A stretch of 42,288 nucleotides of DNA. Origin: Myxococcota bacterium (GTDB lineage Bacteria > Myxococcota > JAJVIH01). The position numbers were made by a program, and so were the translations under genes. A model generated the notes under the pieces. The model ran no database searches, was not told where the DNA came from, and saw only the letters and a list, made by a program, of their open reading frames with translations. Shown here in pieces: positions 1,854 to 17,862 of this stretch (within the stretch, counting starts at the first letter, position 1; the number at the start of each line of letters is the position of its first letter). The stretch lies in the NCBI GenBank assembly GCA_022072125.1, contig JAJVIH010000040.1:1-42288 (forward strand), in the 5' to 3' direction.

Positions 1854-2255
1854 ATGAAAATCACCGGGTTCCTTGTGATGACGGCGCTCGCGGCCGGCGT
1901 TTCCGGATGCGCCGCGCGAGTGGTTCCAGATCAATTTCCGGAACAGTCCGCTTCCTCCGCCTTCGCGGAGGAAGCGCCGCGGGCCGATATCACCGTTTCC
2001 CTGCGGGAAGATCCGCCCCTGCCCGGAGAAGACACCAGCCGCTGGCCCGGGCTGAAACAGGAAGAACCGGAGGATCACGAACACCACGGCCACCACGGCG
2101 GCGATGGCGCCGCCTCTCCGCATCAACACGATACTTCCGGCGGCGGCGCGGATGACAAGGCCGTCCGCTACGTCTGCCCCATGCATCCCCGGGAAACGTC
2201 TGACCACGAAGGGCGTTGTTCCATCTGCGGCATGAAACTGGAGCCCCAGCCATGA
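1854..2255 (+). CDS. Heavy-metal-binding-domain lipoprotein of a copper-type operon
   Basis: This 133-residue lipoprotein has a signal peptide and lipobox (VSGC, Cys19). A low-complexity middle contains a His cluster (HEHHGHHGG). The C-terminus carries a small metal-binding module of the YHS-like type (PF19335 family): YVCPMHP, then GRCSICGMKL, matching the usual Y-x-C-P-M-H-P ... G-x-C-P-x-C-G-M-x-L pattern except that the second Pro is Ser. This module is often found in CopA ATPases and CusB-type proteins and binds Cu or other soft metals. The start ATG is preceded by AAGGGGAT, a good ribosome-binding site. Its stop overlaps the start of the TolC-family gene by 4 bases (ATGA), so translation is probably coupled. 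Likely role: periplasmic metal capture beside the efflux and oxidase proteins encoded next. Confidence 0.85.
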   Translation: MKITGFLVMTALAAGVSGCAARVVPDQFPEQSASSAFAEEAPRADITVSLREDPPLPGEDTSRWPGLKQEEPEDHEHHGHHGGDGAASPHQHDTSGGGADDKAVRYVCPMHPRETSDHEGRCSICGMKLEPQP

Positions 2256-3691
2256 AGGCGATGTTGAATTTCCGCGTCTCCAGCCTGGCGACCGGTTTCG
2301 CCGCCCTTCTGCTGGCGGCCTGCGCGTCCACATCCATCCGGGAGGACATCCAGCGGGTGCGCGAACTGGCGAGGACGGAAGAACTGGCGCCGGTGGCGGA
2401 TATGGAAGCGGACCCGCTTTCCGCATCCGCCACGCATACGCTGCTGGAAAAGCCGCTGGACGCCGATGCGGCGGTCCGGATTGCATTGCTCAACAACCGC
2501 GATCTGCGGGCGTCGCTCCGCGAGATAGGGGTGGCGCGCGGCCAGATATTGCAGGCGGGGTTGCCGCCCAATCCGGAGGTGGAAGTGGAGTTTCTTCCCG
2601 AGCGCGACACCACGATGGAGTTGCGCCTGGAATTTGATCTGACCCACGCCATCCTCGCGCCACGGCGGAGCGGGGCCCTGGAGCCGGATCTCGAAGCCGC
2701 GCGCGCCCGCGCGGCCGCCGCGGCGGTGGACCTGGCCTACCGGACGCGCGTGGCGTTTCATAATGTCCAGGCGGCCGCCCAGCGGCTGGCCGTCGCCCAG
2801 CAGATGCTGGATGCGCTGGCCGCTGTTCGCGACGCCGCGCGCGCCCTGGCCCGGGCGGGCAATATCCCCGAATTGGAACTGGCGCACGCCGAGGCCGGAT
2901 ATGAAAAGGCGCGCATCGCCGTGGCCAGGCTGGAACTGGAGATGTTTACCGGGCGGGAAAAACTCAACCGCCTGCTGAATCTTCATGGCAGGGAAACCGC
3001 CTGGAAGTTGGCCGGAGACCTGGCCGCCGCGCCGGACAAACTCTCCTTTCCCGATGAACTGGAGAAAAAAGCCATCACCAGCAACCTGGACCTGCTGGAA
3101 AGCCGCCACCGTCTCGAAGGGCTGGCGAAACGGGCCGGCTTCGAGCGCGCCAGCGGCTGGATTCCCGATGTCTCCGTGGACGTGCATAGCCTGGCCGGGA
3201 CTCCGGATGAATCCCATCTCACGCCCAACGCCCCCAACTGGCGGTTCGGATTTGGCGTGACCATGGGGTTGCCGGTCTTTGATCGCAACCAGGGGACCGC
3301 CGCCGCGCTGGAAGCGGAGTTTGACGCCCGCATGGAACGCTATCACGGCAAGGCCGTGGAAATCCGATCCGCCGCCCGCGACGCGCGGAACCGGCTGATC
3401 TCCGCCCATGCGCGCGCTCTGCAGTACCAGAAAGTCATCGCGCCGGCGCAGGATCGCGTCACACGGGAGACCCTGCTGCAATACAACGCCATGCAGGTCA
3501 GCGTTTTCCAGCTTCTCCAGGCGCGGCGCGATCAACTCGACGTGCGGCTCTCCCTGGTGGACACCCTGCGCGAATACTGGATCGCCGAGGCGGCGATGAA
3601 CGCCTTGCTCGCCGGCCGCGCAACGGCGCCAGCGGGCGATAGTCCGGATGTCCGGGTGGGGCCGCCCACCGATTCCGTGGGAGGACACTGA
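2252..3691 (+). CDS. TolC/OEP-family outer-membrane efflux lipoprotein
   Basis: This 479-residue protein has a lipoprotein signal (LLAAC, Cys24) and the typical two-repeat organisation of the outer membrane efflux family (PF02321). Features include PLDADAAVRIALLNNRDLRAS early, GLPPNPEVEVEFLPE, a long Ala/Glu-rich helix of coiled-coil type, and a second repeat with GVTMGLPVFDRNQG and a further helical hairpin. OEP proteins form the trimeric outer-membrane channel of tripartite pumps. The ATG at 2252 overlaps the preceding stop by 4 bases; a TTG 36 bases earlier is in frame but would add a non-signal extension. No RND pump or membrane fusion protein gene accompanies it here, which is unusual for a CusC-like role. 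The next gene starts one base after its stop. Metal specificity is inferred only from neighbours. Confidence 0.88.
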   Translation: MKAMLNFRVSSLATGFAALLLAACASTSIREDIQRVRELARTEELAPVADMEADPLSASATHTLLEKPLDADAAVRIALLNNRDLRASLREIGVARGQILQAGLPPNPEVEVEFLPERDTTMELRLEFDLTHAILAPRRSGALEPDLEAARARAAAAAVDLAYRTRVAFHNVQAAAQRLAVAQQMLDALAAVRDAARALARAGNIPELELAHAEAGYEKARIAVARLELEMFTGREKLNRLLNLHGRETAWKLAGDLAAAPDKLSFPDELEKKAITSNLDLLESRHRLEGLAKRAGFERASGWIPDVSVDVHSLAGTPDESHLTPNAPNWRFGFGVTMGLPVFDRNQGTAAALEAEFDARMERYHGKAVEIRSAARDARNRLISAHARALQYQKVIAPAQDRVTRETLLQYNAMQVSVFQLLQARRDQLDVRLSLVDTLREYWIAEAAMNALLAGRATAPAGDSPDVRVGPPTDSVGGH

Positions 3692-3692
3692 A

Positions 3693-4994
3693 ATGGACCG
3701 TCGCAGGTTTGTGCAAATCAGCGGACTGGCGGCTGGAACCGCCCTGTTGCCCAGAAATCCGGAGGCGCGAACGCCGGCCTCCGTTCGCGCCGCTCCAGGC
3801 CGGAAGCGCGCGAAACCCGGAGCGATGATCACCACGGGTCAGCCCGCGGTGGTCACGCCGAATGGTTCGACCCTCCCCTGGAAAATCGTGGATGGCGTCA
3901 AGGTCGGCCGCCTGATCGCAGGACCGGTTGACCACGAATTTGCTCCCGGGTTGCGCGCGGAATGCTGGGGCTACAATGGCTCCACGCCGGGTCCCACGAT
4001 TGAGGCCATGGAAGGAGATCGCCTGCGCATCTATGTCGCCAACCGGCTGCCCGAGCCCACCTCGGTCCACTGGCACGGCGTCATCCTGCCCAACGGCATG
4101 GATGGCGTGGCGGGGCTGAACCAGAAGCCCATTCCGCCGGGTGAAACCTTCATGTACGAATTCACGGTGAAATATCCGGGCACGTTCATGTACCACTCGC
4201 ATTACGACGAAATGACCCAGATGGCGCTGGGCCTGGTGGGCATGTTCATTGTTCACCCCAAACAGCCGCGCGGCCCCGGGGTGGATCGCGACTTCGTGCT
4301 GATGACCCATGAGTTCCGCGTGGCGGTGGGCGCGCGCCGTCCCGACCCCAACGAAATGAAGGATTTCAACCTGCTGACCTTCAACAGCCGCGCCTTTCCC
4401 GGAACCGCGCCCTTGCTGGTGGGAACCGGCGAGCGCGTGCGCATCCGGCTGGGCAACCTGAGCCCGATGGATCACCATCCCGTGCATATTCACGGGGTGT
4501 TCTTTCATGAAACCGCCACGGATGGGGGGTACATCCCCGAATCCGCCCGGCGCCCGGAGACCACGGTGCTGGTTCCAGTGGGAAGCACCCGCGTGATCGA
4601 ATTGATTCCCGAGGAGCCGGGGGACTGGGCGATGCATTGCCACATGACCCATCACGTGATGACACAGATGGGGCACGGTTCACCCATCATGATCGGCGCG
4701 GACACCAGCCGGCTGGATCGCAGAATGGCGCGCGTGATGCCCGCCTACATGACCATGGGAACCACCGGCATGGGCGGCATGGGAGAAATGGACATGCCCA
4801 TTCCCCCCAACAGCCTGCCCATGCGCGGCGGACCTGGCCCTTTCAGCTATATTGACATGGGCGGCATGTTCACCGTGCTGAAGGTGCGGGATGATCCGGA
4901 CAACAGCGATCCGGCGGGATGGTATGCGCATCCGGAGGGAACCGTGGCTGGTCCGGCCGATCCCGCCCGCATGAAAAAAGACGGCCTGGAATAA
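3693..4994 (+). CDS. Tat-exported multicopper oxidase
   Basis: This 433-residue protein is a three-cupredoxin multicopper oxidase. All four copper-ligand motifs are visible: HWHG (His126, His128), YHSH (His168, His170), HPVHIHG (His262, His265, His267) and HCHMTHHVMTQM, where Cys316, His321 and Met326 would be the type-1 copper ligands. The N-terminus MDRRRFVQISGL is a twin-arginine signal, consistent with export of a folded copper protein. The C-terminus is Met/Gly-rich (several GMGGMGEM-like clusters), as in copper-handling oxidases such as CopA and CueO. The start follows the TolC-family stop by one base; an in-frame upstream ATG at 3648 would lie inside that gene and precede the Tat signal, so it is less likely. 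Probable role: periplasmic oxidation of Cu(I) or another small substrate. Confidence 0.93.
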   Translation: MDRRRFVQISGLAAGTALLPRNPEARTPASVRAAPGRKRAKPGAMITTGQPAVVTPNGSTLPWKIVDGVKVGRLIAGPVDHEFAPGLRAECWGYNGSTPGPTIEAMEGDRLRIYVANRLPEPTSVHWHGVILPNGMDGVAGLNQKPIPPGETFMYEFTVKYPGTFMYHSHYDEMTQMALGLVGMFIVHPKQPRGPGVDRDFVLMTHEFRVAVGARRPDPNEMKDFNLLTFNSRAFPGTAPLLVGTGERVRIRLGNLSPMDHHPVHIHGVFFHETATDGGYIPESARRPETTVLVPVGSTRVIELIPEEPGDWAMHCHMTHHVMTQMGHGSPIMIGADTSRLDRRMARVMPAYMTMGTTGMGGMGEMDMPIPPNSLPMRGGPGPFSYIDMGGMFTVLKVRDDPDNSDPAGWYAHPEGTVAGPADPARMKKDGLE

Positions 4995-5204
4995 CCACGG
5001 AGTTGGCGCGCGTTCCGGCGGATCATTGCGCCGGTGTGATGAGGCAAGCGCGTATCCGCCGCCCCGCCGCGGGTGAAAATCAGGCGGGTGGGGCCATTCC
5101 AGATGAGCGCGGGGGCCGGTCTTTCGCCATCGTTTTCTTGACTGGGCAGGCGGCGGGGGCGATGCATTGCCTTGATTTCCGGTCCCTCCCTGGTTCAAAG
5201 GTTC

Positions 5205-6347
5205 ATGGCCGTGATTGTTCACAATCCGTTGTTGATGGATCCGCGGGTGCGGGATTCCGCTGAACCTGCGCCCGCCAAGAGCCAGGGAAAACCGGCCGTG
5301 CTGGATTTTTTCGCCGGCAGCGGGCTGGTCTCCGCCGGATTGAGCGAATGTTTCCGGACAGTGTGGGCCAACGACATTTCCGGAAAAAAAGCCGCTGTAT
5401 TCCGTGCGAATCATCCCCGCAAACCGTTTCTGCTGAAACCCATTGAATCCATCCATGGCGGCGATTTACCAGACGCCGTGCTCGCCTGGGGAAGTTTCCC
5501 CTGCCAGGACCTGTCGCTTGCGGGGAATCTGCATGGCATCGGCGGCGCGCGCAGCGGATTGGTCTGGCAATGGCTCCGCGTGCTGGACGAAATGGAAAAG
5601 CGCCCGCCGGTCCTCGTGGGGGAAAATGTCACGGGACTGGTCTCCGCGGATGGCGGTGCGCATTACCGCCGGTTGCATCAGGCGCTCACCGCGCGCGGCT
5701 GCCTGGTTGGCGCCGTTGAACTCGACGCCATCCGGTGGATTCCCCAGTCACGCAAGCGGATTTTCGTGATCGCGGCCCGGCGCGATGCAAAGGCGCTTGC
5801 ATTCACCCAGGCCGGGCCGGGGTGGTGCCATAGCAAGGCCATCGCCGCCGCGGCGCGGGGAATGGAAGGATGGGTCTGGTGGCGAATCCCCGAACCTCCT
5901 CCCCGAGAAATCACGCTGGAGGATGTGCTGGAGGACAATGCGCCGTGCGACCCGGAAGAGAAAACCAGGCGTCTGTTGAGCCTGATCCCGCAAAAGCACC
6001 TGGATCAGATGCGCGTGCTCCCGCGGATGCGGGTTTTTCCGGGGTACCGGCGGATCCGCGATGGCAGGCAGGTTCTGGAATTGCGTTTCGATGGCGCGGC
6101 GGGTTGCCTGCGCACGCCGGAGGGCGGCAGCAGCCGTCAGATTCTGGTTATCCGCGATGGACAAAACCTGAAAACCCGCCTGCTGACCGTGCGGGAGGCC
6201 GCCCGGCTGATGGGCGCTCCGCCAGACTTCCGGATTCCGGGCAGTTACAACGACGGCTACAAGGCCATGGGGGACGCCGTGGCGGCCCCGGTGGCGCGTT
6301 ATCTCGCCAGAAATCTGCTGTCGCCGTTGGCGGCCGTGTTTGAATGA
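5205..6347 (+). CDS. DNA (cytosine-5-)-methyltransferase, solitary
   Basis: Residue numbers assume the ATG at 5205. The motifs of the C5 family occur in order: motif I DFFAGSGLVS (34-43), motif IV PCQDLS with catalytic Cys100, motif VI GENV (Glu140), motif VIII QSRKR (181-185), and motifs IX/X near the C-terminus (RLMGAPPDF, GDAVAAPVARYLA). The enzyme transfers methyl from SAM to cytosine C5 in a specific DNA site; the target recognition region between motifs VIII and IX is fairly short and gives no readable specificity. There is no restriction endonuclease or Vsr gene on either side, so it looks like an orphan methyltransferase rather than half of a restriction-modification pair. An alternative TTG start at 5172 would add 11 residues; ATG at 5235 is also possible. 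Confidence 0.92.
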   Translation: MAVIVHNPLLMDPRVRDSAEPAPAKSQGKPAVLDFFAGSGLVSAGLSECFRTVWANDISGKKAAVFRANHPRKPFLLKPIESIHGGDLPDAVLAWGSFPCQDLSLAGNLHGIGGARSGLVWQWLRVLDEMEKRPPVLVGENVTGLVSADGGAHYRRLHQALTARGCLVGAVELDAIRWIPQSRKRIFVIAARRDAKALAFTQAGPGWCHSKAIAAAARGMEGWVWWRIPEPPPREITLEDVLEDNAPCDPEEKTRRLLSLIPQKHLDQMRVLPRMRVFPGYRRIRDGRQVLELRFDGAAGCLRTPEGGSSRQILVIRDGQNLKTRLLTVREAARLMGAPPDFRIPGSYNDGYKAMGDAVAAPVARYLARNLLSPLAAVFE

Positions 6348-6399: not shown

Positions 6400-8328
6400 T
6401 CATTTTCCCGGGGATTCCGGGGCGGCGATGGCGCATTTGATGTTGATCAGGCAGTCCAGCAGGCCATCTGTCTTGCGGCCGTATGCCTGCTGAAACGCCA
6501 CGGCGAAATTCGATCCTTCCGCGAGACCGCGCGCCAATTGAGCCAGCCGCGCCTCTCCGCCGGCGTGGATCAGCCGCCGCACCACCGCCGCGGACGCCTG
6601 CTGGAGCATGGCGGCGCGCGCCGGAGTTCCGGCGGCCAGCAATCCGCGTGACAGGTCTTCGAGGGTGGAAATGCGCACGCCGGATTGGCTGGCGCGCCGG
6701 AGCGCATCCCGCAACTGGACGTTGCGGTGGCAATCGGATTGTTCCAGGCAGCCAAGGCCTTCATCCAGCCATGCGGGAATGCGATCGGGGATGACCGCGC
6801 GCAGAACCAGATGAACCGCCTCATGCCGGGCGATGGCCATCCGCCGCGCGGGCGGCAGCCGGAAAACCGCCGGGTTAACCACCACGGACCCGCGCGTGGT
6901 CACCGCCATGACATCGCCGCCCTGGCCGGTGACGCGGATGAAATCCTCCACCGTCCGGGACGCCAGGACACGGAATTTGAACGGGCGATCCATCCACTCC
7001 TCGCCAATGATTCGCGGCCCTGGCGGCGGCTCCGGCAATATCAGATGGGATGACTCCAGCCCGAAACGCGCCATCACGCGGCCGGCATGGGCGGATACCT
7101 CGTGCGCAAAAACATTCGCGGGCCCCCCGGACGCCTGCGCCAGCACGGACGCCGGAAAAGTCTCCCGCGCCGGAATGGCGCGGCTCACCCGCGCGCCGGG
7201 GAAATAACGTGTCAGGATATCCTCCACCGCCGCGCCGTCCAGGGCCATCTTCCGGGCGCCGCGCTGGCAAAGCCCCACGCCGTGGCCATGCCCGCGTCCG
7301 GTGAATATCCAGTCCGCGCCGTCGCGGCGGATATCGAACAGAGCGCTGCGCAGGCGGTTCCAGCCTTCGGATTTTCCCACAAGGCTCAGCCATGCAACGC
7401 CGCTGACAACGCCGGAACGTCCTCCGCCGCGCCACGCCAACTCCTTCGCCCGCCCCGAGGGATCGCGCACGCTCACGCGCAGGTCTTCCACCGCCGCGGG
7501 CGCTCCCAGCAGCGCGGCGAGACGGCGGGCGTCCACGCGCCATCGCCATTCGTCCGTGGGGTGATCATCCGCGCCGGACCGCGACCACTCGACCGGTTCT
7601 TCTCCCCATACGCTCGCCGCGCTGGAGAGTTGTCCGCCGCAATCCGCGTGGAACCAGGCGGAAATCGGTCCGCCGGATCGCTCCTTCAGGATGCGCCCTC
7701 GGGTGCGGCGGGCCGCCCGGACCCCACGGTGATCGCCCTCACGGCCGCCATGAAACACCTGACAATGGGTCAGGTCGCAGAGATCGGCGTGGGCGTGCCT
7801 TGGCGCGCGCATCGCCCGCGCCGCGAAGCTGCGGTGGACAATCGCCATGGCGTCCAGCAGCGCCGCGGGCGCGTCCTCCGGGCTTTCCGCGGGAACCACG
7901 CCAGCCACGTACTCCTCCAGCGGCGGCGTCAGGACCAGCAGCAGGCCCGGGCGTTGCGGATGCGCCCGCGCCTCCAGCCGCCCCGCGTATTTCCTGATCA
8001 CTTTGCCCGCCCGGATCCGGGCGCCGCTCCCCAAGTCCATGGTGATTATCCCGGCTCGCCATTCCGGCTGCCCGGCAGGGACAATGCGCACCTCATCGCC
8101 ATCGCGGCGGAATTTCACTTCCGCCGCGCGCGGGGATTTTCCATGCGCCTGGATGGATAGCCGCCGTCCGCTGATCGTGATTTTCTCCAGTTGGTGGTGC
8201 GCGAGGATTTCCACCCGTGGTTGCGCGGATGGATGAGGATCCTCCCCGGCGTCCCGGGCGAAAGCCGCCTGCGGCGGCGCGATGAGGCAAGCCAGCAAGC
8301 AAACCCGGCGCTGGAAGCACGCGTTCAC
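6400..8328 (-). CDS. Exported SpoIID/LytB-domain protein fused to a gluzincin (peptidase MA-like) domain
   Basis: The GTG start at 8328 overlaps the stop of the transpeptidase gene by 4 bases (GTGA), giving 642 residues and a hydrophobic N-terminal signal. The first half is a SpoIID/LytB domain: LEEYVAGVVPAESP (Glu148 aligns with the conserved catalytic Glu of SpoIID lytic transglycosylases), AWFHADCGGQL, SEGWNRLRSA and RGHGHGVGLCQRGA. SpoIID proteins cleave peptidoglycan glycan strands, usually those lacking stem peptides. The second half (from about 410) holds RHEAVHLVL with a zinc-binding HExxH (His502, Glu503, His506) and AWLDEGL (Glu523), the pattern of the peptidase MA-like gluzincin family. 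The combination in one exported chain is uncommon. Coupling to a PBP suggests envelope remodelling; substrates of the protease half are unknown. Confidence 0.87.
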   Translation of the reverse strand: MNACFQRRVCLLACLIAPPQAAFARDAGEDPHPSAQPRVEILAHHQLEKITISGRRLSIQAHGKSPRAAEVKFRRDGDEVRIVPAGQPEWRAGIITMDLGSGARIRAGKVIRKYAGRLEARAHPQRPGLLLVLTPPLEEYVAGVVPAESPEDAPAALLDAMAIVHRSFAARAMRAPRHAHADLCDLTHCQVFHGGREGDHRGVRAARRTRGRILKERSGGPISAWFHADCGGQLSSAASVWGEEPVEWSRSGADDHPTDEWRWRVDARRLAALLGAPAAVEDLRVSVRDPSGRAKELAWRGGGRSGVVSGVAWLSLVGKSEGWNRLRSALFDIRRDGADWIFTGRGHGHGVGLCQRGARKMALDGAAVEDILTRYFPGARVSRAIPARETFPASVLAQASGGPANVFAHEVSAHAGRVMARFGLESSHLILPEPPPGPRIIGEEWMDRPFKFRVLASRTVEDFIRVTGQGGDVMAVTTRGSVVVNPAVFRLPPARRMAIARHEAVHLVLRAVIPDRIPAWLDEGLGCLEQSDCHRNVQLRDALRRASQSGVRISTLEDLSRGLLAAGTPARAAMLQQASAAVVRRLIHAGGEARLAQLARGLAEGSNFAVAFQQAYGRKTDGLLDCLINIKCAIAAPESPGK

Positions 8329-9341
8329 AGGCTGTCCCTCCGGCGGCGGTATTCTTCCAGCGCGCGCACGGCCAGTGGAACGGCGTCCCGGCGTCCCGTC
8401 CCGTCGCGCACGAATACCGAGATGGCGATTTCGGGCCTGCCGGCGGGCCAGTATCCGGCGAACCAGCCGTGGGTTTTCCAGCCGTTGACCCATCCCGCCG
8501 TACCGGTTTTTCCCGCCGCGTCGAAACCGGCTTCGCCCAGGGCGGCGGCGGTGCCTTTGGGACCGGCGGCGCGGCGCAATCCCTCGCGCACCAGCGAAAA
8601 CAGCGGGCCGGGCTGCGCGGCGATCCGTTTCTCCGTTCCAGCGGCGTGGAAACGCGGGGTCACGCGGGCGCCGCCCGTCGCCAGCCAGGCGGCCATGACG
8701 GCGGCCTGCAAGGGTGTGACGCGGATTTCTCCCGTCCGGCCCAGCGCGGATGCAAGTCCCTCCACCGGCCTGCTGTCCACATGCAGCACGCCCGGCGATT
8801 CGGCCGCCGCATCAATCCCCGTGGGCGCGCCCAATCCAGCCTCGCGGAGAACCCGCGCCAGCGCGTCAGGCGGAAGCGTCTCCAGCATGCGGTAAAAATA
8901 ATGGTTGCAGGAACGCTCCAGCGCGCCCAGCAGGTCGAGTTTTCCATGTCCCCGGGGATGCCAGCAACGCAATTTTTCCCTGGGCGCCTGCCGGCCGGTG
9001 CAGGTCCATTCCCGGTCCGGATGGGCGCCCGCGCGCAACGCGGCGATGGCGATCAGCGGTTTGAGCAGGGACCCCGGCGGTTCTGAAATAGTCCATGCCG
9101 CGGCGCCGTGCGTGGAGGCCAGCACCTTGCCATCGCCGATGCGCAGGATCACCACCACGCTGTCCACGGGTGAAACGGCTTCCAGCGCCTGGTCCAACGC
9201 GCGCGGCGCCGCTTCCGGGAGGGGGAGGGCGGGCGGCGTGGGCGATACGCAGGCCGCCACGGCCCACAGGGCGCAGAGCGGCGCCATCCCCAGCCTGGCT
9301 GGCGATGGGCGGATATGCGGTCTTGCGGATTGTCCCACCAT
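8325..9341 (-). CDS. Penicillin-binding transpeptidase-domain lipoprotein
   Basis: This 338-residue protein consists almost only of a transpeptidase domain. The active-site motifs are complete: SLLK (Ser91, Lys94), SCN (144-146) and KTG (278-280, in GKTGTAG). Family motifs such as GEIRVTPLQAA and GWKTHGWFAGYWP are also present. A lipobox (VAAC, Cys31) follows a hydrophobic stretch, so it is predicted to be lipid-anchored rather than held by a transmembrane helix. It lacks the long dimerisation or glycosyltransferase region of classical class A or B PBPs. It would crosslink or trim peptidoglycan stem peptides in the periplasm. The downstream SpoIID-type gene starts inside its stop codon. The ATG at 9341 was chosen because it gives a complete signal; an internal ATG at 9287 would shorten the signal. 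Confidence 0.87.
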   Translation of the reverse strand: MVGQSARPHIRPSPARLGMAPLCALWAVAACVSPTPPALPLPEAAPRALDQALEAVSPVDSVVVILRIGDGKVLASTHGAAAWTISEPPGSLLKPLIAIAALRAGAHPDREWTCTGRQAPREKLRCWHPRGHGKLDLLGALERSCNHYFYRMLETLPPDALARVLREAGLGAPTGIDAAAESPGVLHVDSRPVEGLASALGRTGEIRVTPLQAAVMAAWLATGGARVTPRFHAAGTEKRIAAQPGPLFSLVREGLRRAAGPKGTAAALGEAGFDAAGKTGTAGWVNGWKTHGWFAGYWPAGRPEIAISVFVRDGTGRRDAVPLAVRALEEYRRRRDSL

Positions 9342-9547
9342 GACAGATTGTCCGCGGCGGCGCGCGCCGCCGTTGTCCTTGCGAAGATCGGGAGCGGAGG
9401 GCTGGATCAGGCCTGTTTCAACCGGAATGGATGGCGTGAATCCCAACCCCCGCGGTTGGCGGCGGCCATTCCCCCGTGACGCGCCGCGCGGACACCCCCT
9501 GCATCGCGCCGGGGGATATCCGCGGAGCATGATGGCGGGCAGGCGGC

Positions 9548-9572
9548 GCGGAGCAGCGCGAATGCGCTCCGC
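9548..9572. terminator. Possible hairpin after acsA
   Basis: AGCGC and GCGCT pair around a GAAT loop and are extended by GCGG/CCGC with a 3-base bulge. It lies 37 bases after the acsA stop on the minus strand. There is no clear T-run on either side, so it is only a candidate terminator. Confidence 0.3.
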
Positions 9573-9608
9573 AACGCATGGAACGCGGCGTGGAACCCTC
9601 CTGGCGCA

Positions 9609-11561
9609 TTACTCTTCTTCTTCCTGGGCGCGGAGTTTTTCCAGCACCGAACGGTCTTCCAGCGTGGTGGTGTCTCCGGTCGCCTTGCCGGAGGCGATCT
9701 CGCGCAGCAGGCGGCGCATGATCTTGCCGCTGCGGGTTTTCGGCAGCAGGTCCGCGAACCGGATGTCGTCGGGACGGGCGATGGCGCCGATTTCCTTCAC
9801 CACCCAGGCTTTCAATTCGTCACGCAGCGCGGGCGTTCCTTCCTGGCCCTGCTTGAGGGTGACAAACGCGAACACCGACTCGCCCTTGAGGTCATCGGGC
9901 TTGCCAATGACAGCGGCCTCGGCGACCGCCGGATGGGAAACGAGCGCGCTTTCGATCTCCATGGTGCCAAGCCGGTGTCCCGCCACGTTGATGACATCGT
10001 CCACGCGGCCCATGATCCAGAAATAGCCGTCGCTGTCGCGGCGGGCGCCGTCGCCGGTGAAGTAGCATCCGGGAAATTCGCTCCAATACTGGCGTTTGTA
10101 GCGTTCGTCGTCGCCGAAAATCGTGCGCATCATCGAAGGCCATGGCTTGCGCACCACCAGGTAGCCGCCGGAATTGGGCGGAACCGGCTTGCCCTGCTTG
10201 TCCACCACTTCCGCGTCAATGCCGGGGAAGGGCAGGGTGGCGGTGCCGGGCTTGGTGGGAACCGCCCCCGGAATGGGCGTGATCATGATGGCCCCGGTTT
10301 CGGTTTGCCACCAGGTGTCCACGATGGGGCAGCGTCCGCCGCCAATCACCTCGCGGTACCACATCCACGCTTCCGGATTGATGGGTTCGCCCACGGTGCC
10401 CAGCAGGCGCAACGATTTCAGGTCCGATTTCGCCGGCCATTGCTCGCCCCACTTGATGAACGCGCGGATGGCGGTCGGCGCGGTGTAGAAAATATTGACG
10501 CCGTGGCGCTCGATGATTTGCCAGAAACGCCCCGGGTCCGGGTGATTCGGCGCGCCTTCGTACATCACGCTGGCCGCGCCGTTGGCGAGCGGCCCGTACA
10601 CCACGTAGCTGTGGCCGGTCACCCAGCCAATGTCCGCGGTGCACCAGTAGGTGTCCTCCTCGCGCAGATCAAACACCCATTTGGTGGTGATGTACGCGCC
10701 GGTCATGTATCCGCCCGTGGTGTGCAGCACGCCCTTGGGTTTTCCCGTGGTGCCGCTGGTGTACAGGATGAAAAGCGGATGCTCGCTGTCCAGTTCCTCC
10801 GCGGGGCAGCGCGCATCCACCGCGGCCATCATCTCTCCCCAGTCGTGATCGCGGCCTGCTTTCATGACAATGCTGTTGCCGCAGCGGCGGTAGACCACCA
10901 CGCCGGTGATGGTGGGGGTGTTTTCGATGGCCGCGTCCACATTGGCCTTGAGCGGAACAACCTGACCGCGCCGCCAGCCGCCATCGGCGGTGACCACCAG
11001 TTTCGCCTTGGCGTCGTTGATGCGATCACGCAACGCCTCCGCCGAGAAGCCGCCGAAGACAATGGTGTGCACGGCGCCGATGCGCGCGCACGCCAGCATG
11101 GCGATGGCCAGTTCGGGCACGAGCGGCATGTACAGCGCCACGCGATCGCCGCGCTCCACCCCCAGCTTTTTCAGCACGTTGCCGAATTTGCAGACCTCCT
11201 GGTACAGCATCTGGTAGGTCAGGATGCGGATGTCGCCGGGCTCGCCTTCCCAGATCAGCGCCGCCTTGTTTTTGCGGTGGGTGGTGAGATGGCGGTCCAG
11301 GCAGTTGTAGCTGAGGTTGGTCGTGGCGCCGGTGAACCATTTGGCGAAAGGAGGATTGGACCAGTCGAGCGCCTGGCTCCACGGTTTGAACCAGTGCAGT
11401 TCGCGCGCGATGGCTTCCCAGTGCGCTTCCGGATTCTCCCGCGCCCGGCTGACCAGCGCATCGTATTCGGCGCGGCTCCTGATATGGGCGCGGGATGCGA
11501 ATTCATCGGAGGGCGGGAAGGAACGCTTCTCGGTCAGCACGCTTTCGATATGGTCCGCCAT
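9609..11561 (-). CDS. acsA: Acetyl-CoA synthetase (AMP-forming)
   Basis: The 650-residue length and sequence match acetyl-CoA synthetase closely. The N-terminal ACAS segment ([20 protein letters not shown]) is followed by the AMP-binding P-loop [14 protein letters not shown], the [21 protein letters not shown] block, DTWWQTETG, and [20 protein letters not shown] with the hinge. The C-terminal [11 protein letters not shown] carries the catalytic and acetylation-regulated lysine. It converts acetate, ATP and CoA to acetyl-CoA, AMP and pyrophosphate in the cytoplasm. The gene appears monocistronic, with a TTGACA/TAGTGT promoter about 86 bases upstream. The start at [12 protein letters not shown] agrees with the usual N-terminus; the reading frame extends upstream but that part is promoter sequence. 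No acetyltransferase (Pat) or deacetylase gene lies next to it. Confidence 0.97.
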
Positions 11562-11646
11562 GGTGTCTGCCCCTGTGCCAGCGCGGCCGGGACGGGTGTC
11601 GAACCGCCCCGCCGCCGTTTGTCCGGAATGATCAGTCAATATCCCG

Positions 11647-11674
11647 ACACTAGCCCCGGCGCGCATCTTGTCAA
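11647..11674 (-). promoter_or_regulatory. Sigma70-type promoter of acsA
   Basis: Read on the minus strand, TTGACA (11674-11669) is followed by a 16-base spacer and TAGTGT (11652-11647). The -35 box is a perfect consensus. The predicted transcript would have a leader of roughly 80 bases before the acsA ATG at 11561. Confidence 0.65.
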
Positions 11675-11732
11675 GCGCGGGGATGGTTCCGGTTTGCTTC
11701 CCGCGCCCGGCTCCGGCGGCGAAAATCACCCA

Positions 11733-12125
11733 TCACCCTTGCGGCGGCTTGCCCTTGCCGCCGGCGATGAACCCGCGGGATGCGAAGAAGGCGCAGTCGC
11801 AATAGCCGTCGCGCGCGATGTCTTCGTGGTGGGGCGTGCAGGGGCAGGCCATTTCCGCTCCGCGTTTGAGGCTGTCCTCGATGGGGTGGCAGGGGCAGTA
11901 CATGCGCCCATGCTCCGCCAGGTTGCGCGCCAGACCCTCGATGACCTCGTTGACGCGGTGTTCGTCCGGATAAAATCCGTAGGGTCCGCGCTCCACGTAT
12001 TTCTCCGCCATGCGCCGCACGCGCGCCCGCGCCTGGTCCAGCGTCAACGCCGGTCTGGATTTCGCGCCCGCGCCATCCGCCGCCTGGGACGGCGCTTCCA
12101 CGGGTTTGAGCGGTTCCTTGCTCAA
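11733..12125 (-). CDS. Ferredoxin:thioredoxin reductase catalytic (beta) chain-like protein
   Basis: The protein has the signature of the FTR catalytic subunit, which uses a [4Fe-4S] cluster next to a redox-active disulfide to reduce thioredoxins with electrons from ferredoxin. The helical lead-in YGFYPDEHRVNEVIEGLARN is followed by YCPC, then ACPC and YCDC with the family spacing (CPC-x16-CPC, then CxC; plant enzymes have CHC in the last position). There is no signal peptide. The start is uncertain: TTG at 12125, eight bases after the preceding stop, GTG at 12101 (with AAGGAA upstream) or ATG at 12011 would all retain the core. It follows the DPBB lipoprotein gene without a promoter gap, so it may be co-transcribed. 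No FTR variable chain, ferredoxin or thioredoxin gene is nearby. Confidence 0.83.
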   Translation of the reverse strand: MSKEPLKPVEAPSQAADGAGAKSRPALTLDQARARVRRMAEKYVERGPYGFYPDEHRVNEVIEGLARNLAEHGRMYCPCHPIEDSLKRGAEMACPCTPHHEDIARDGYCDCAFFASRGFIAGGKGKPPQG

Positions 12126-12132
12126 GCGGCGC

Positions 12133-13566
12133 TCATTTGCACAGGTTGGGCATGCAAACGCGCACGGAGGAGCCCGTTTTGGCGTGGGTGCGCTTGTAGC
12201 AGCCGTATCCCGCGCGGCAGCCGGCGGCGTAGAGCGAGAAGTCGCAGCGGGCCGCGCATTGCGACGAGCCGTCATCGAATTTCACGCAGGAGGTCAGGGC
12301 GTTCGCGCCCGGTTTGTCAGGGCAGGCGTCCGTGCAGGATTGGGTGCACATGCCATCTGGATAACCCTGCGCCGCGGTCAGGCAGGCTCCGCCCGCGCCG
12401 CAGTCCGCCGCGCGGGTGCAGGAGCCGCCCGCAACTCCGGCCTGGCGTTGCACGCCGGCGCCGGTGTGATCACAGGGGCCCAACGGCGTGTTCGCCTCGA
12501 CCGGGGCGCCGTAGACAATTTTCTTCTGGGACCAGCCCGCCGAGGTGATGTTGTACAGCGCCTTCGAGGCGAGGGGAGACACATCCCAAATGGCCTTCTT
12601 CGCGGCTTCCTCGACGCAGATATTGGGGCCGGTATCCACCACGCTCACCACCACGCATTTGTCCCGCTTGTCGTTGGTGAGACGGACACGGGCCTTGCAG
12701 GCGAAACGCTGTTTGTTGGCCGCGTAGTACCACGTGGCGTCGGCGATGGGGCCGCCGCAGGCGACCGGCTGCTCGTCGCCCGGACCGCCGAAGGTGGTGA
12801 GCACGTATTCCTGGTTTTCGGGCAGGCGGTTGTCGGTCGTGGGGCCCTGGTTCCGCACGCGGGTGAGGCAGGCGGACATGGTTTCTCCCGGCGGACCTTT
12901 GGTGTTGGCGGGAACCCATGCAGCCAGCGGCTCGGGCTGGACGCACGATCCGCCGTCGCCGCCGCTGTCCGTGACCGAGGCGTCCTTGCCGGCGTCGCCA
13001 GGGGCTGCGTCTGTCAAGCCAGAGTCGGTGGGGGAAATATCCGTTGGTCCGGAATCGCTGGGTCCGGAATCCTTGGCTCCCGAGTCGGACGGACCGCTGT
13101 CGGCGGGACCGGCGTCCTTCACGCCCGCATCGGCGGCCCCGCCATCCCGGCTGGCGTCCGTGGAGCCCGAATCGGAAAGACCGGCGTCGCGTCCAGCGTC
13201 CGCGGTTCCGCTGTCGCGGGGGCCCGTGTCCGCGGAACCCGCATCCCGTCCCGCGTCCGCTTTGCCGCTATCGGGAATCGAGCCGTCGCGGCGGACGATC
13301 AATTCGCCATCCGCTTCCTCGCCGCCATCGGCGGGCTCTTCCGCATCCTCGCCGGGAGCGGGGGCTGTATCAGTGGGGCCGCCCTGATCGGTTGCTCCGG
13401 TATCCGCTGGAACCGGGGTTCCCGTGTCCGTCTCCACGGAAGCGCCAGTGTCCCGCCGGATCGCTCCATCCGGCGCCGCGGGAATGACGGAACTGGCGTC
13501 GCAGGCGGCGAACAGAACCATGGCGAACAAGACCATGATCTGGACGGGCGTGGAGTTGGACTGCAT
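12133..13566 (-). CDS. Stalked lipoprotein with double-psi beta-barrel (RlpA/expansin-like) and Cys-rich tail
   Basis: This is a 477-residue lipoprotein (lipobox FAAC, Cys22; GGGGGA ribosome-binding site). An Asp/Gly/Ser/Ala-rich stalk runs to about residue 206. A folded region at about 268-345 looks like a double-psi beta-barrel: ACGGPIADATWYYAANKQRF, then CVVVSVVDTGPN, comparable to the V-x-V-x-D-R-G-P motif of RlpA and expansins, then AIWDVSPLASKALYNI, matching the IDLSPAAAKRL motif. The C-terminal 110 residues hold about 14 cysteines (GSCTRAADCGAGGACL, and others), probably disulfide-bonded. Asp directly follows the lipid-modified Cys, unlike the other lipoproteins here. A role in binding or modifying peptidoglycan or another polysaccharide is an inference from the fold. 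Confidence 0.78.
   Translation of the reverse strand: MQSNSTPVQIMVLFAMVLFAACDASSVIPAAPDGAIRRDTGASVETDTGTPVPADTGATDQGGPTDTAPAPGEDAEEPADGGEEADGELIVRRDGSIPDSGKADAGRDAGSADTGPRDSGTADAGRDAGLSDSGSTDASRDGGAADAGVKDAGPADSGPSDSGAKDSGPSDSGPTDISPTDSGLTDAAPGDAGKDASVTDSGGDGGSCVQPEPLAAWVPANTKGPPGETMSACLTRVRNQGPTTDNRLPENQEYVLTTFGGPGDEQPVACGGPIADATWYYAANKQRFACKARVRLTNDKRDKCVVVSVVDTGPNICVEEAAKKAIWDVSPLASKALYNITSAGWSQKKIVYGAPVEANTPLGPCDHTGAGVQRQAGVAGGSCTRAADCGAGGACLTAAQGYPDGMCTQSCTDACPDKPGANALTSCVKFDDGSSQCAARCDFSLYAAGCRAGYGCYKRTHAKTGSSVRVCMPNLCK
12949..13275 (-). repeat. Degenerate pentapeptide stalk repeat (xxD[AST]G)
   Basis: About 109 codons encode consecutive units of the form x-x-Asp-[Ala/Ser/Thr]-Gly, with periods of mostly 4 to 5 residues (RDAG, SADTG, PRDSG, TADAG and similar). 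It is an acidic, proline-containing, presumably extended spacer. It is a protein-level tandem repeat in a coding region; the DNA units are degenerate, so it is not a minisatellite in the strict sense. Confidence 0.85.
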
Positions 13567-13650
13567 GGATTTCCCCCGGAAACATCGCCAGTTGGCGGAT
13601 TCGCGGCAGGCTTTCAGTTTTGCCGCCGCCGTTCAATCCCCCAAATGACC

Positions 13651-13684
13651 GACCCCCGGTGGATGGCGCATCCGACCGGGGGTC
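13651..13684. terminator. Nested hairpin between ceramidase-like and DPBB genes
   Basis: GACCCCCGGT (13651-13660) pairs perfectly with ACCGGGGGTC (13675-13684), and inside it GGATG pairs with CATCC around a GCG loop, leaving one unpaired G. It sits just after the stop of the ceramidase-like gene on the minus strand. There is no strong U-run, so termination may be weak or the hairpin may protect the mRNA end. Confidence 0.6.
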
Positions 13685-13709
13685 AATCTGATCGGAAAAT
13701 AGCGCGGGT

Positions 13710-16382
13710 CTATTCCACCTTGACCTTTTCCTCGCCGCTGTTGCCCAGCGAATCCATCACCTTGATGGTCAATTCGCCCTTGCCCGGCGAATCCACCTCG
13801 ACGCGGGTGGTGACCAGGCCGCCGCGGGTGCCCGGCGCATTGATGGACGCCCGTTTGCCCTTGAGTTTCTCGAAGGTCTGCGATTTGCCGTCCCGGGTGA
13901 TGGTGAGGGTCAGGTCGCGATCTTCGGGAACCATGGCGCCATAGGCGTCGGGGTTATGCACGCTGCGCAGCAGGAATCCTTTCTTGCCGCTGATGACCTC
14001 CGGACCATCCGCATAGTTAATGTGGAGGGTCAGTTTGCCGCCTGATTCCTTGACCTCGCGCACGCGCATTTTCGACGAAGGCTTCACCACGAACTCCTTG
14101 GACATCACCTTGTACGGCTTGGCCGCGGCGCCATCCCATTCCTTGCCTTCCACGGCGATGCGGTAGGCGCCCTCAGGGAAGTCCTCCAGCCGTTCCCATT
14201 CCACGGCCCAGGTGTGGTTCTTCTCGTAGTCGCCCTTGTAGATCAGCACGGAATCAAAGCCCCAGCCGATGGCGGGCAAGCCGCCCTTGCGGGTGTGCTC
14301 GACAAAACCGGCGCCGTCCTTCCGCTCCAGCCTGACGATGGGCAAATCCACGCCGGGGTGTCCGCCGCTCCACGAGAACTCCGCCAGTTCCAGGCGTTCG
14401 ATGCTGTCCTTCATGTCCGCCGCCACCTGACCGGCTGGAACGCTTCCCTTGGTGGGGGCGACGGTTTTCTGGTCCAGAATATCGGTTTCGCGCCAGTAGG
14501 TCGGCTTGATGCCGGTGTCGTTCTTTTCCTTGTCGGAGGTGAAGAGTTGCTTGGCCAGCAGGGCCGCCTCGGTGCGGATATAATCGCCGAAATTGTAGCC
14601 CCAGATATCCATGGAAGGCTCATAACCGCCGCGCAGATAGTCCATCTTCTCCATCAGGTAGAAGTGGTGATCCTGTGAATAACCAAAGACGATGGCGTGT
14701 TTGGCCCCCGAAGTCTTGACATCCTCGATCAGTTTGAGGCCGAGGCTGGCGTGGGGTTCGCCGGGGAGGGTTGAAATCACCAGGTCGTTCATGCGCACGG
14801 CGGAGAGCCGGGTTTTCTGGAACTGAGGCACCGGCGCGCGGAACAGGAACTGGATGGCGAAGGCGCAGCTCAGATTGCCGTCCACATAATATTCGCCTTC
14901 CTTCTCCTTGGGTTTCACCACGCACTGGAAGGCCCCGAAATGATAAGGCCGTCCCGGGGTCACGCCCGCCTTGTCGAAGTATTCGCCCTCCTTGTACAGC
15001 TTGTCGTAGCGGATGGGGATGCGCCGCGACACCACCTCCAGCGACATTTCGTCGGCGGTGGTGATGCTGTCCATCAGGCCCGTCACATGTTCCATGGTGC
15101 GGCGTCCCAGCAACTGGATTTTGCCCGGATTGGCGTGCCCGCGATCGTCTCCGCGCGGGGACTGGTCGCCGCCCGATCCATTGGCGAAGAGCACCGGAAC
15201 GCGCTTTCCGTATTTGGCGGCCAAGCCGATCTCGGTTTCCACTTCCGCGCCCCCCGCGGCGTCTCCGGTCACCCAGGTTTCGCCGAAATGGGTGGCGTGC
15301 ATGCCAAAATTCACGATCACCGCCATGGGCTGACTGGATGCGGCGTCATCCACCCGCAGAACGGTCAGGGTATTGTCCTTGAGTTTGGGATTCTCCCCGC
15401 GCCGGTCGGAGAAAATGAGATCGTCCGGATCGAAATCCTTCTTCACGCCATAGCCAAACTTCGCGGGCTTCATGTTCTTGAGCGCCATGATCACCGCATC
15501 GGCCATGGAGTTGACGTAACGCTGGTGCAGATCGCGGTTGTAATCATCGTAGCCGAAAACCGAGAAGCCCTTGCCGGGCACCAGGTTCCAGTAGCGGGCC
15601 GGCTGGGAGTGCGAATGGGGAGCGTCGGTGACGATCTTGTCCACGTAGTTGACGCCGGTCGCCTCCTGAACCTTCAGGGCGATCATCGAAACCGTGTCGT
15701 CGCTGGTCCAGCAGGCGGGGATGCGCAGGAAGATCACCGTATCCTCGCCGTTCTCGATGGCCAGCACCTTGGCTTCCTGGCGCTCGAAAACCCGATCGGA
15801 TCCGCCCAGCGTCACCTGATAGGGAGTCTTGGCGCCCTTGCGTCCGCCATATCCGGCCATGGAAACGCCAACGGGAAAATCGTAGTTGGTCACGCCCACG
15901 CCCGCCTTGATCTTGCCGCGCTGGCCGGATGGCGGCGCCTTGCCGGTCCACATGTCCGGATAGGGGCGGCAGGCCCCGTTATAGCATTCGCCATTGACGG
16001 GGCAGTCGGCGTCAGTCTGGCAGACCTTCACGCAGGCGTTGTTGAAGCAGGTCCGGTCTTCGTCCTTGCAGTCGTTGACGCTGTTGCAGGCGGTCACGCG
16101 GACGCATTGACCCTTTTCGCAGTCAAAACGCTTCGGACAATCGCCGGGGAAAAGACAGGCCTGGCCGCCGCCATCCGGATCGGTGGCGGCGTCATCGCCG
16201 CCGCTGTCGCCGGGCGTTGCGCCATCACTTCCGGACGAAGCACCGGTATCCGGCGGCGTTCCCGTGTCTTGCGCGCCGGGCGTGGAGCCGTCCACGGGTT
16301 CCTGCTTGGGATCGCTGGAGCAACCCAGAAAAAGGGCGGACGCCAGCAAAGCCAGCGCGGAGAGATGACGAAGCGTGAACAT
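13710..16382 (-). CDS. Neutral/alkaline ceramidase-like lipoprotein
   Basis: This 890-residue lipoprotein has lipobox LFLGC (Cys21), an Asp/Gly/Thr-rich stalk to about residue 75, and two or three short Cys-rich modules at about 76-140 (CPKRFDCEKGQCV, CNSVNDC, CQTDADC). From about 157 it follows the neutral ceramidase family (PF04734). GVGVTNYDFPVGVSMAGYGG opens the domain; TDAPHSHSQPARYW (His256, His258) corresponds to the T-H-T-H zinc region. NFGMHATHFG (His362, His365) then aligns with the second His region, and GSGGDQSPR (Ser408) with the G-D-V-S-P-N nucleophile motif. TLPGEPHASLGLKL and GYSQDHHFYLMEKMDYLRGG are later family blocks. Beta-rich C-terminal domains follow. Ceramidases hydrolyse ceramide to sphingosine and fatty acid; here His/Ser variants make the exact substrate uncertain. 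The promoter is visible upstream. Confidence 0.83.
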   Translation of the reverse strand: MFTLRHLSALALLASALFLGCSSDPKQEPVDGSTPGAQDTGTPPDTGASSGSDGATPGDSGGDDAATDPDGGGQACLFPGDCPKRFDCEKGQCVRVTACNSVNDCKDEDRTCFNNACVKVCQTDADCPVNGECYNGACRPYPDMWTGKAPPSGQRGKIKAGVGVTNYDFPVGVSMAGYGGRKGAKTPYQVTLGGSDRVFERQEAKVLAIENGEDTVIFLRIPACWTSDDTVSMIALKVQEATGVNYVDKIVTDAPHSHSQPARYWNLVPGKGFSVFGYDDYNRDLHQRYVNSMADAVIMALKNMKPAKFGYGVKKDFDPDDLIFSDRRGENPKLKDNTLTVLRVDDAASSQPMAVIVNFGMHATHFGETWVTGDAAGGAEVETEIGLAAKYGKRVPVLFANGSGGDQSPRGDDRGHANPGKIQLLGRRTMEHVTGLMDSITTADEMSLEVVSRRIPIRYDKLYKEGEYFDKAGVTPGRPYHFGAFQCVVKPKEKEGEYYVDGNLSCAFAIQFLFRAPVPQFQKTRLSAVRMNDLVISTLPGEPHASLGLKLIEDVKTSGAKHAIVFGYSQDHHFYLMEKMDYLRGGYEPSMDIWGYNFGDYIRTEAALLAKQLFTSDKEKNDTGIKPTYWRETDILDQKTVAPTKGSVPAGQVAADMKDSIERLELAEFSWSGGHPGVDLPIVRLERKDGAGFVEHTRKGGLPAIGWGFDSVLIYKGDYEKNHTWAVEWERLEDFPEGAYRIAVEGKEWDGAAAKPYKVMSKEFVVKPSSKMRVREVKESGGKLTLHINYADGPEVISGKKGFLLRSVHNPDAYGAMVPEDRDLTLTITRDGKSQTFEKLKGKRASINAPGTRGGLVTTRVEVDSPGKGELTIKVMDSLGNSGEEKVKVE

Positions 16383-16438
16383 GAAAGTGTCCCTTGCGTG
16401 ACAGAAGAAATGGACCGCACCCCGGATGAATCGCCGAT

Positions 16439-16467
16439 ACTCTAAATTCGAGCCACCTTCAGGTCAA
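16439..16467 (-). promoter_or_regulatory. Sigma70-type promoter of the ceramidase-like gene
   Basis: On the minus strand TTGACC (16467-16462), a 17-base spacer and TAGAGT (16444-16439) precede the ATG at 16382 by about 57 bases. A good ribosome-binding site (AAGGGA, 8 bases before the ATG) follows. The opposite strand of this divergent gap has no equally clear promoter for the gene at 16630. Confidence 0.65.
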
Positions 16468-16629
16468 TGCATCCGCTGATTTTTATTGGTTATCCGGATA
16501 AAACCACCCCACGGAATCACCAGGCAGGCGAAACCGGCCTTCGAGAAGCCGGGAACCGGCGCGTCCGCGGGCCCCTGACCGTATCTCTCCGGGTGATACG
16601 GGATATTCCCCGCCGCCGTTGACGCGGCC

Positions 16630-17808
16630 ATGGCCTTGCGTTTCAATCCCGCCATGGGACGTGAATTGCGGAAGGGCGTGTGGATTCCCGCGCTGGCGTT
16701 GTTGCTGGCGTGGGGCGGATGCTCCTCCCGCAACCCGGCGGACCGCCCCCTCGACCGCCTGGCGGAAGGAGCGGACAGCGGCGCCCCCGCCATCCACCCG
16801 GATGCACGGACGCCGCCGGGTCCTGACGCCATGACAGTGGACATTGGCGCCGCGGATTCCGCGCCGCCGGACAGCGGCGCCGGAGATTCCGCGATAACGG
16901 ACGCCGGTGATGCGGAAGAGGCGGGGCTGTCCGATAGTCCGCCCCCGGATGATCTTGCTCCGCCGCCCGGCGATTTGCCCTTCGCGGGCCACTGGATGCG
17001 GGATGTGATCGGCGACTGCATACAGGCGGAGGAATGGTTTTCATTCAGGCCGGGCAATCCATTCGGATTCACCTTCACCATGGTGGACCGGAACGCCTGC
17101 AGCGCCAACTGGTTTGTCAAACCCGTCGAAGGAACCGGCGGCTTTCAATCCGGCGCGCTCATCCAAATCCGCTATGAAAATAACGGCGTTCAAATGGCGG
17201 CGGAATGGACGCCCGTGGTGGTCAATGGCTGGTGGGATAAACAGCCGCCACATCCCTTTGGCTATCAACCGGGCGGACGCGCCCTGAACGTTCGCGGTTT
17301 CGTGGCGGCGCCGGACGGCGGCGGCAAATCCTTCCGGAACCGCTACTCCCAGCGCATGGAATACCCGGAAAATGGATATTTTTCGTGGGAGGAGACGGAA
17401 ATCCGCCTGCTGTTTGATCGTCCGGTTTCCGCGGGGGCCGGATCGTGCAAAATCTCGGCGTCCGTGCTTGTCGCCCGGAATAGCACGCGGGAGCCCCTGG
17501 AGAAGGATGAAAAGAAGCTGGAATTTGGTTGCACGGCCGGTCCATCCGTCCGTCCCGGTTTTCAGCAGATTGTGTTTGATGGTTTTGAGCCATCCACCGC
17601 GTTCATCAAATGGAACGAATATATCACCCGGCAAAAACTGTTTGCGAAGGAATACAGTCCATTGCGTTACCAGTTCGAAAGGGCGTTGCAACCGGTCCTC
17701 TATTTCCGCACGGACAACGCATCATCCCTGTTTGTGGAAGGCGATGGTTGGCTGACGGAGTACCGTGACGGTCCTCCCGCCACGGTCACCGCGCCAGCCA
17801 GGCCCTAG
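16630..17808 (+). CDS. Stalked lipoprotein of unknown function
   Basis: I do not recognise this 392-residue protein. It has a signal peptide ending in a lipobox-like LAWGGC, then an Ala/Asp/Pro/Gly stalk (DSAPPDSGAGDS and similar) to about residue 115. A single globular domain of about 270 residues follows, rich in aromatic residues and beta-type sequence: AGHWMRDVIGDC, FRPGNPFGFTFTMVD, WTPVVVNGWWDKQPPHPFGY, then FDGFEPSTAFIKWNEYITRQ near the end. Four cysteines in the globular part could form disulfides. The start is either ATG at 16630 or ATG at 16654; neither has a good ribosome-binding site, and 16654 gives the more usual signal length. It is transcribed divergently from the ceramidase-like gene and convergently with the GH94-like gene. 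Surface or periplasmic location is inferred. Confidence 0.72.
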   Translation: MALRFNPAMGRELRKGVWIPALALLLAWGGCSSRNPADRPLDRLAEGADSGAPAIHPDARTPPGPDAMTVDIGAADSAPPDSGAGDSAITDAGDAEEAGLSDSPPPDDLAPPPGDLPFAGHWMRDVIGDCIQAEEWFSFRPGNPFGFTFTMVDRNACSANWFVKPVEGTGGFQSGALIQIRYENNGVQMAAEWTPVVVNGWWDKQPPHPFGYQPGGRALNVRGFVAAPDGGGKSFRNRYSQRMEYPENGYFSWEETEIRLLFDRPVSAGAGSCKISASVLVARNSTREPLEKDEKKLEFGCTAGPSVRPGFQQIVFDGFEPSTAFIKWNEYITRQKLFAKEYSPLRYQFERALQPVLYFRTDNASSLFVEGDGWLTEYRDGPPATVTAPARP

Positions 17809-17862
17809 TATTTGTTCTCCGGAACAGGCGGTGGTTCTCTCGCCGCGCCGCCGTGCTTTTTC

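Follow-up and report, generated by a model that had tools for sequence, protein, structure and literature searches.

A penicillin-binding protein and a SpoIID-gluzincin fusion protein as a possible wall-working arm of a bacterial A2M system

What task would bring together a transpeptidase, a cutter of glycan strands and a zinc metalloprotease in just two proteins? This question is raised by a gene pair in a 42,288-nucleotide contig of a Myxococcota bacterium (JAJVIH010000040.1, assembly GCA_022072125.1; the whole stretch analysed is called the window), in which the gene for a minimal penicillin-binding protein (PBP) is followed by one for a SpoIID domain fused to a gluzincin. We consider it likely that this pair is linked to an alpha-2-macroglobulin (A2M) system and, on balance, we favour the view that it does the wall work for an A2M system resembling YfaS/Mag, by a mechanism that is proposed below. 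In 10 of 10 relatives the PBP-SpoIID pair lies in the same locus as an A2M, which suggests that protease trapping is combined with wall repair or remodelling. The first-pass annotation had proposed an envelope-remodelling module acting possibly in morphogenesis or predation, and the domains, active-site residues and gene order agree with such a module, whereas that setting is not borne out, as synteny points to A2M in all ten cases.

The two proteins and their active sites

Both frames were found on the minus strand at the positions first claimed for them, with the GTG start of the SpoIID-gluzincin gene overlapping the PBP stop, as had been noted, by four bases common to both genes (GTGA). The lipobox of the PBP and the signal peptide of the fusion protein are by-eye calls. 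The features are as follows.

8325-9341, minus strand: minimal PBP (338 aa), transpeptidase domain without pedestal, VAAC lipobox-like motif (PF00905 2.1e-35, residues 70-317; SLLK/SCN/KTG)
6400-8328, minus strand: SpoIID-gluzincin fusion protein (642 aa) with a signal-peptide-like N-terminus (frame and domain searches)
7180-7932, minus strand: SpoIID/LytB domain, residues ~133-383 (TIGR02669 1.2e-42; alignment to 4rwr, 5i1t and 5txu)
7762-7797, minus strand: zinc-site motif HAHADLCDLTHC, residues 178-189 (alignment to C. difficile SpoIID)
6454-6984, minus strand: gluzincin (Peptidase_MA_2-like) domain, residues ~449-625 (PF13485 3.2e-7; profile Z 5.4e-10)
6811-6825, minus strand: HEAVH, zinc-binding HExxH, residues 502-506 (motif position)
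6760-6762, minus strand: Glu523 of WLDEG (residues 520-524), expected third zinc ligand (kept in nine of nine homologues)

The SpoIID part of the fusion protein matches TIGR02669 with 146.7 bits against a cut-off of 83.3, and PF08486 at 2.4e-16. Its PAES (residues 146-149) and GHGHGVG (346-352) motifs are both present, and Glu148 aligned with Glu101 of C. difficile SpoIID (5i1t, 5txu), with H178, C184, H188 and C189 aligned to H134, C140, H145 and C146 of the same enzyme, residues whose roles are described in the available part of PMC6221140. The SpoIID motifs that had been read in one exported chain are thus real, and the significant domain match, Glu148 and GHGHGVG (the GHGxG motif) together assign the domain to the SpoIID/LytB lytic transglycosylases. 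A CDxxHCQ/GxCQ signature was considered as a marker of A2M-linked SpoIIDs and ruled out, as it is also present in SpoIIDs with no visible A2M link.

The gluzincin that had been proposed to follow the SpoIID part was likewise recovered. The match to PF13485 reached 30.8 bits, under the Pfam cut-off of 32.4 bits, and a profile (profile Z) made here from the gluzincin genes of nine related loci matched residues 449-599 at E 5.4e-10, with the best of 600 shuffled controls at 0.094. HExxH and the third-ligand glutamate were retained in all nine gluzincin homologues of the related loci, so neither of the outcomes named beforehand as refuting a gluzincin, the lack of a match in this region or of HExxH and Glu523 in homologues, was obtained, and HEAVH and Glu523 within a profile-matched domain place it in the Peptidase MA clan. 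A structure prediction of the isolated C-terminal domain had a mean pLDDT of 38.3 and was left unused.

In the PBP, SLLK (residues 91-94), SCN (144-146) and KTG (278-280) supply the SxxK, SxN and KTG motifs inside the transpeptidase domain, confirming the complete motif set that had been described for it, and VAAC is at residues 28-31. Judged by these residues, the active sites of both proteins look intact.

Gene order in the phylum and the A2M of the same genome

Family- and class-level searches gave only the window's own genome and the survey was therefore phylum-wide. A SpoIID query (P0001) had matches in 189 of 195 phylum genomes, so SpoIID-like genes are near-universal and their presence alone is uninformative. 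PBP relatives at E<=2.1e-30, a threshold chosen like the others of this survey after the data had been viewed, were found in 12 of 189 genomes including the window's own. In 10 of the 11 others a SpoIID gene is adjacent to the PBP (G003, G004, G005, G006, G007 and G009) or fused with it (G060, G061, G063 and G091), with an A2M in the same locus, of which the G007 contig holds the end only. A YfaP-like gene is present for nine of these ten loci, DUF1175 is on the same contig as the pair in nine, and a gluzincin gene comes after SpoIID in nine, the contig of the tenth (G004, L122) ending 162 bases past SpoIID. The synteny survey suggested by the first-pass annotation therefore shows that the PBP-SpoIID-gluzincin order recurs. 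Profile Z detected no neighbouring gluzincin in any of 33 other SpoIID loci (L010-L036, L038, L039, L042 and three of the own genome), some of which have short flanks, and four SpoIID loci from a whole-collection P0001 scan had no PBP, gluzincin or A2M by the profiles built here. Furthermore, full-length DUF1175 (E<1e-40) was found in 12 of 189 genomes, 11 of them shared with the 12 PBP genomes (Fisher 7e-16, relatedness ignored).

The boundaries between the three enzymes shift from locus to locus. There are three separate genes in G003, G005, G006, G007 and G009, PBP and SpoIID are in one chain with the gluzincin apart in G060, G061, G063 and G091, and in the window the PBP is apart with SpoIID and gluzincin in one chain, a fusion seen solely in this genome. 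In E. coli YfaQ, compared below, a single chain holds PBP and SpoIID and possibly the third part as well. That fusions recur while the order stays the same is a classical sign of joint action.

The window's genome has two A2M genes, one of them on another contig (C18) and directly preceded by a DUF1175 gene (1e-64):

L076 (own contig C18), 9116-14566, minus strand: DUF1175 next to A2M with CVEQ thioester motif (A2M and DUF1175 matches)

Compared with the A2Ms from five trio loci, this A2M reaches 634-748 bits; its scores are lower with a PBP1C-linked A2M (338-356), the Citrobacter YfaS type (208-213) and E. coli YfhM (100). Its CVEQ is at position 1064, and the CxEQ thioester motif is kept in all five trio-locus A2Ms checked; it was not found in Citrobacter YfaS nor in the A2M of G155. 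As in a type II A2M operon, A2M and DUF1175 occur together in this genome, here as adjacent genes; the absence of CxEQ that is also described for that type does not apply to the C18 A2M. A weak match to NlpC/P60 (2.3e-4, sub-cut-off) was obtained for the DUF1175 protein, which might add a peptide-cutting step.

Other genes were seen near these loci. In the own genome a PP2C phosphatase that also carries a cNMP-binding domain is encoded upstream of DUF1175-A2M (L076, 14889-16196, minus). In one related locus the A2M part is separated from the trio by NIF3-like and Ser/Thr kinase (PEGA) genes (L118, 5755-8097, minus). Control by phosphorylation is possible. G005 encodes a further gluzincin of the kind seen in A2M loci (L146, C198, 7678-8544, plus; 157 bits with profile Z), next to which neither a PBP nor a SpoIID was recognised. 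An own-genome gluzincin paralogue on contig C23 was rejected as A2M-linked, its neighbours being unlike A2M parts.

Within the window, the pair lies between an acetyl-CoA-synthetase-like gene upstream (named by eye) and a convergent C5-cytosine DNA methylase downstream (5172-6344, plus), and it therefore stands as a separate unit of two genes. Further away are an outer-membrane efflux protein and, next to it, an exported multicopper oxidase (2216-4991, plus), a probable copper-handling pair, and, across 13713-35269, large genes for a ceramidase-like, a GH94-like, a 958-residue S49 peptidase, a three-lamin-tail-domain and a kelch protein. An Rfam search of the window gave no match.

A proposed guard-and-repair mechanism and its alternatives

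What was observed comprises the domains, active sites with their residues intact, the order of the genes and their co-occurrence in genomes. From this we infer complex formation in the organism, the activities, a repair role and a substrate for the protease, and combine these into a guard-and-repair mechanism at the envelope, to which we give a roughly even chance. A periplasmic A2M would trap invading proteases through bait-region cleavage and thioester capture, and the SpoIID enzyme would trim glycan strands near the trap. The lipid-anchored PBP would re-crosslink peptides, leaving the wall cleared and resealed at the breach, and the gluzincin would cut a protein of the same complex, most likely the A2M, our first guess, which it would arm or mature, or else a trapped enzyme.

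Several observations weigh against tying the pair to an A2M. The pair (contig C34) and the A2M (C18) lie on different contigs, not in the single operon expected of type II, so the link rests on other genomes. Profiles for DUF2135 and DUF2138, partner genes of such an operon, had no match in the own genome (95.8% complete). With the pair split from the A2M and both of these families without a match, we do not class the system as a type II A2M operon. The SpoIID and PBP trees put the window proteins on long branches and not firmly with the A2M-locus copies (support 79/44 for the PBP grouping), a grouping of the window PBP with MrdA-type PBPs was not rejected (p 0.314), and the BLAST-nearest SpoIID is in L014, a short locus in which no A2M or PBP was found. 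Among the other genomes, G047 has a stand-alone PBP and G155 has DUF1175-A2M with no recognised trio nearby. In characterised relatives, MagE is reported as cytoplasmic in the available part of PMC5764988, and the gluzincin resemblance of YfaQ is at motif level (z 2.2, with the best of 60 shuffles scoring higher), a profile search being negative. Taken with the phylum loci, we nonetheless read the pair as probably a split, active-site-intact variant working in a YfaS/Mag-type system.

Two other explanations are each unlikely. The pair could be a stand-alone wall-remodelling unit unrelated to A2M, in which a divergent elongation- or sporulation-type PBP works with a SpoIID cutter and the gluzincin releases or matures a wall-bound protein in growth or morphogenesis. 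Its isolated position between synthetase-like gene and methylase would fit, as would the top NCBIfam match of the PBP, which is MrdA-like (far below cut-off), and trees compatible with MrdA kinship. However, the trio and its order match the A2M loci in nine of nine testable cases and none of the 33 other SpoIID loci, and there is a matching A2M-DUF1175 pair in the same genome.

With a similarly low probability, the gluzincin could be mainly an A2M maturation protease that clips and arms the A2M, comparable to the 165-to-100 kDa step of MagD from the P. aeruginosa mag operon, with the wall enzymes mainly seating the complex. A gluzincin with intact HExxH and glutamate beside the A2M in nine of ten loci is consistent with this, as is the processing of MagD (available part of PMC5764988), given that operon order would make magE the likelier counterpart of yfaQ. 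However, in the same source the effect of magE on MagD is read by the authors as signal-peptide processing, which along with the cytoplasmic location of MagE argues against such a role, the Figure 6 legend and the text give different accounts of the deletions in which the 100 kDa form is lost, and the protease part of YfaQ is recognised by its motif only. Finally, a predatory lytic module whose exported proteins cut prey walls and proteins, as exported enzymes in a Myxococcota might, is very improbable, as the PBP has a lipobox-like anchor, a crosslinking enzyme is unsuited as a lytic weapon, and the conserved gene neighbourhood is that of a periplasmic protease trap.

Comparison with known A2M and SpoIID systems

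E. coli YfaQ is one of the closest known counterparts of the pair. Its gene adjoins yfaS, which is annotated as a pseudogene in K-12, and its Pfam matches are DUF2300 and a SpoIID piece. In YfaQ of E. coli and Citrobacter a PBP profile matched residues 1-293 (7.8e-6) and a SpoIID profile residues 205-549 (1.1e-5), with reversed controls above 0.5 and shuffle tests giving z 7.6 and z 7.0, respectively (8 shuffles each). The end of the protein, HEYLH...GLDE, is identical in the Citrobacter homologue of ~51% identity, and is also covered by the SpoIID alignment. Because the gluzincin likeness is weak and the SpoIID alignment overruns this end, a third domain of YfaQ is tentative. The available part of PMC12282094 already reports a transpeptidase-like N-terminus and SpoIID-like C-terminus for YfaQ, with wider cells and envelope-type profile connections on yfaQ deletion, and proposes that YfaQ takes part in the turnover or assembly of peptidoglycan. 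The PF10062 (DUF2300) profile had no match in the own genome or in any of the 189 phylum genomes.

For the mag operon, the available part of PMC5764988 describes MagD as an A2M without thioester that traps a protease once the bait has been cleaved and that also binds MagA, MagB and MagF, with no pronounced effect of magF deletion. It also cites as an earlier hypothesis that A2M and PBP1C jointly guard and repair the envelope, and terms the roles of bacterial A2M partner proteins unclear. In a limited literature search, in sources available in part, no publication tied a gluzincin or the three-enzyme set to bacterial A2Ms. One phylum locus has an A2M (CLEQ), a PBP1C-type bifunctional PBP (PF00912, PF00905) and SpoIID in series (L142, G086:C1:7524001-7543000, 9187-18664, minus), and therefore either sort of A2M can couple to a PBP and SpoIID; in its group, 7 of 13 loci have a PBP stretch detected upstream of SpoIID (E<1e-7), and in the other 6 it was weaker or not found.

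More tentatively, and with somewhat less than an even chance, the window and its relatives may represent a catalytically intact A2M defence complex of thioester trap, wall cutter, wall sealer and arming protease, which in enterics decayed jointly, with the thioester lost, PBP motifs degenerate and the enzymes merged into YfaQ. If true, innate-immunity-like traps and wall repair would be one machine in bacteria. The split genes with intact sites would turn YfaQ/DUF2300, a family of unknown function, into three named and separately assayable activities, and protease trapping would be tied to wall repair for YfaS-sort A2Ms and, through the A2M-PBP1C-SpoIID locus, for the PBP1C-linked sort too.

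Against known systems, the window protein shares with C. difficile SpoIID the catalytic glutamate and all four zinc ligands, but is fused to a metalloprotease and has no visible sporulation context. The type I A2M-PBP1C operon (E. coli yfhM-pbpC) similarly pairs a protease trap with a peptidoglycan synthase, although PBP1C is a bifunctional class A enzyme and no gluzincin was found there. YfaQ (E. coli yfaA-yfaT-yfaS-yfaQ-yfaP; mag operon) has a PBP-like part, then a SpoIID-like part and a HExxH-like motif last, and its gene is beside A2M and DUF1175 genes; however, YfaQ is a single chain in which the PBP motifs are degenerate (SLWK is retained, with SCG and KTW in place of SxN and KTG) and the SpoIID match extends over about two thirds of the Pfam profile, whereas the window encodes two separate chains, keeps every motif intact and has neither a DUF2300 match nor an adjacent A2M. 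There is also a close likeness to the phylum A2M loci (L112-L116 and L118-L122), where the gluzincin is a separate gene, four of ten have PBP-SpoIID fusions and the A2M is in the locus, unlike the window with its SpoIID-gluzincin fusion and its A2M elsewhere in the genome, but where the same three enzymes occur in the same order with their active-site residues retained.

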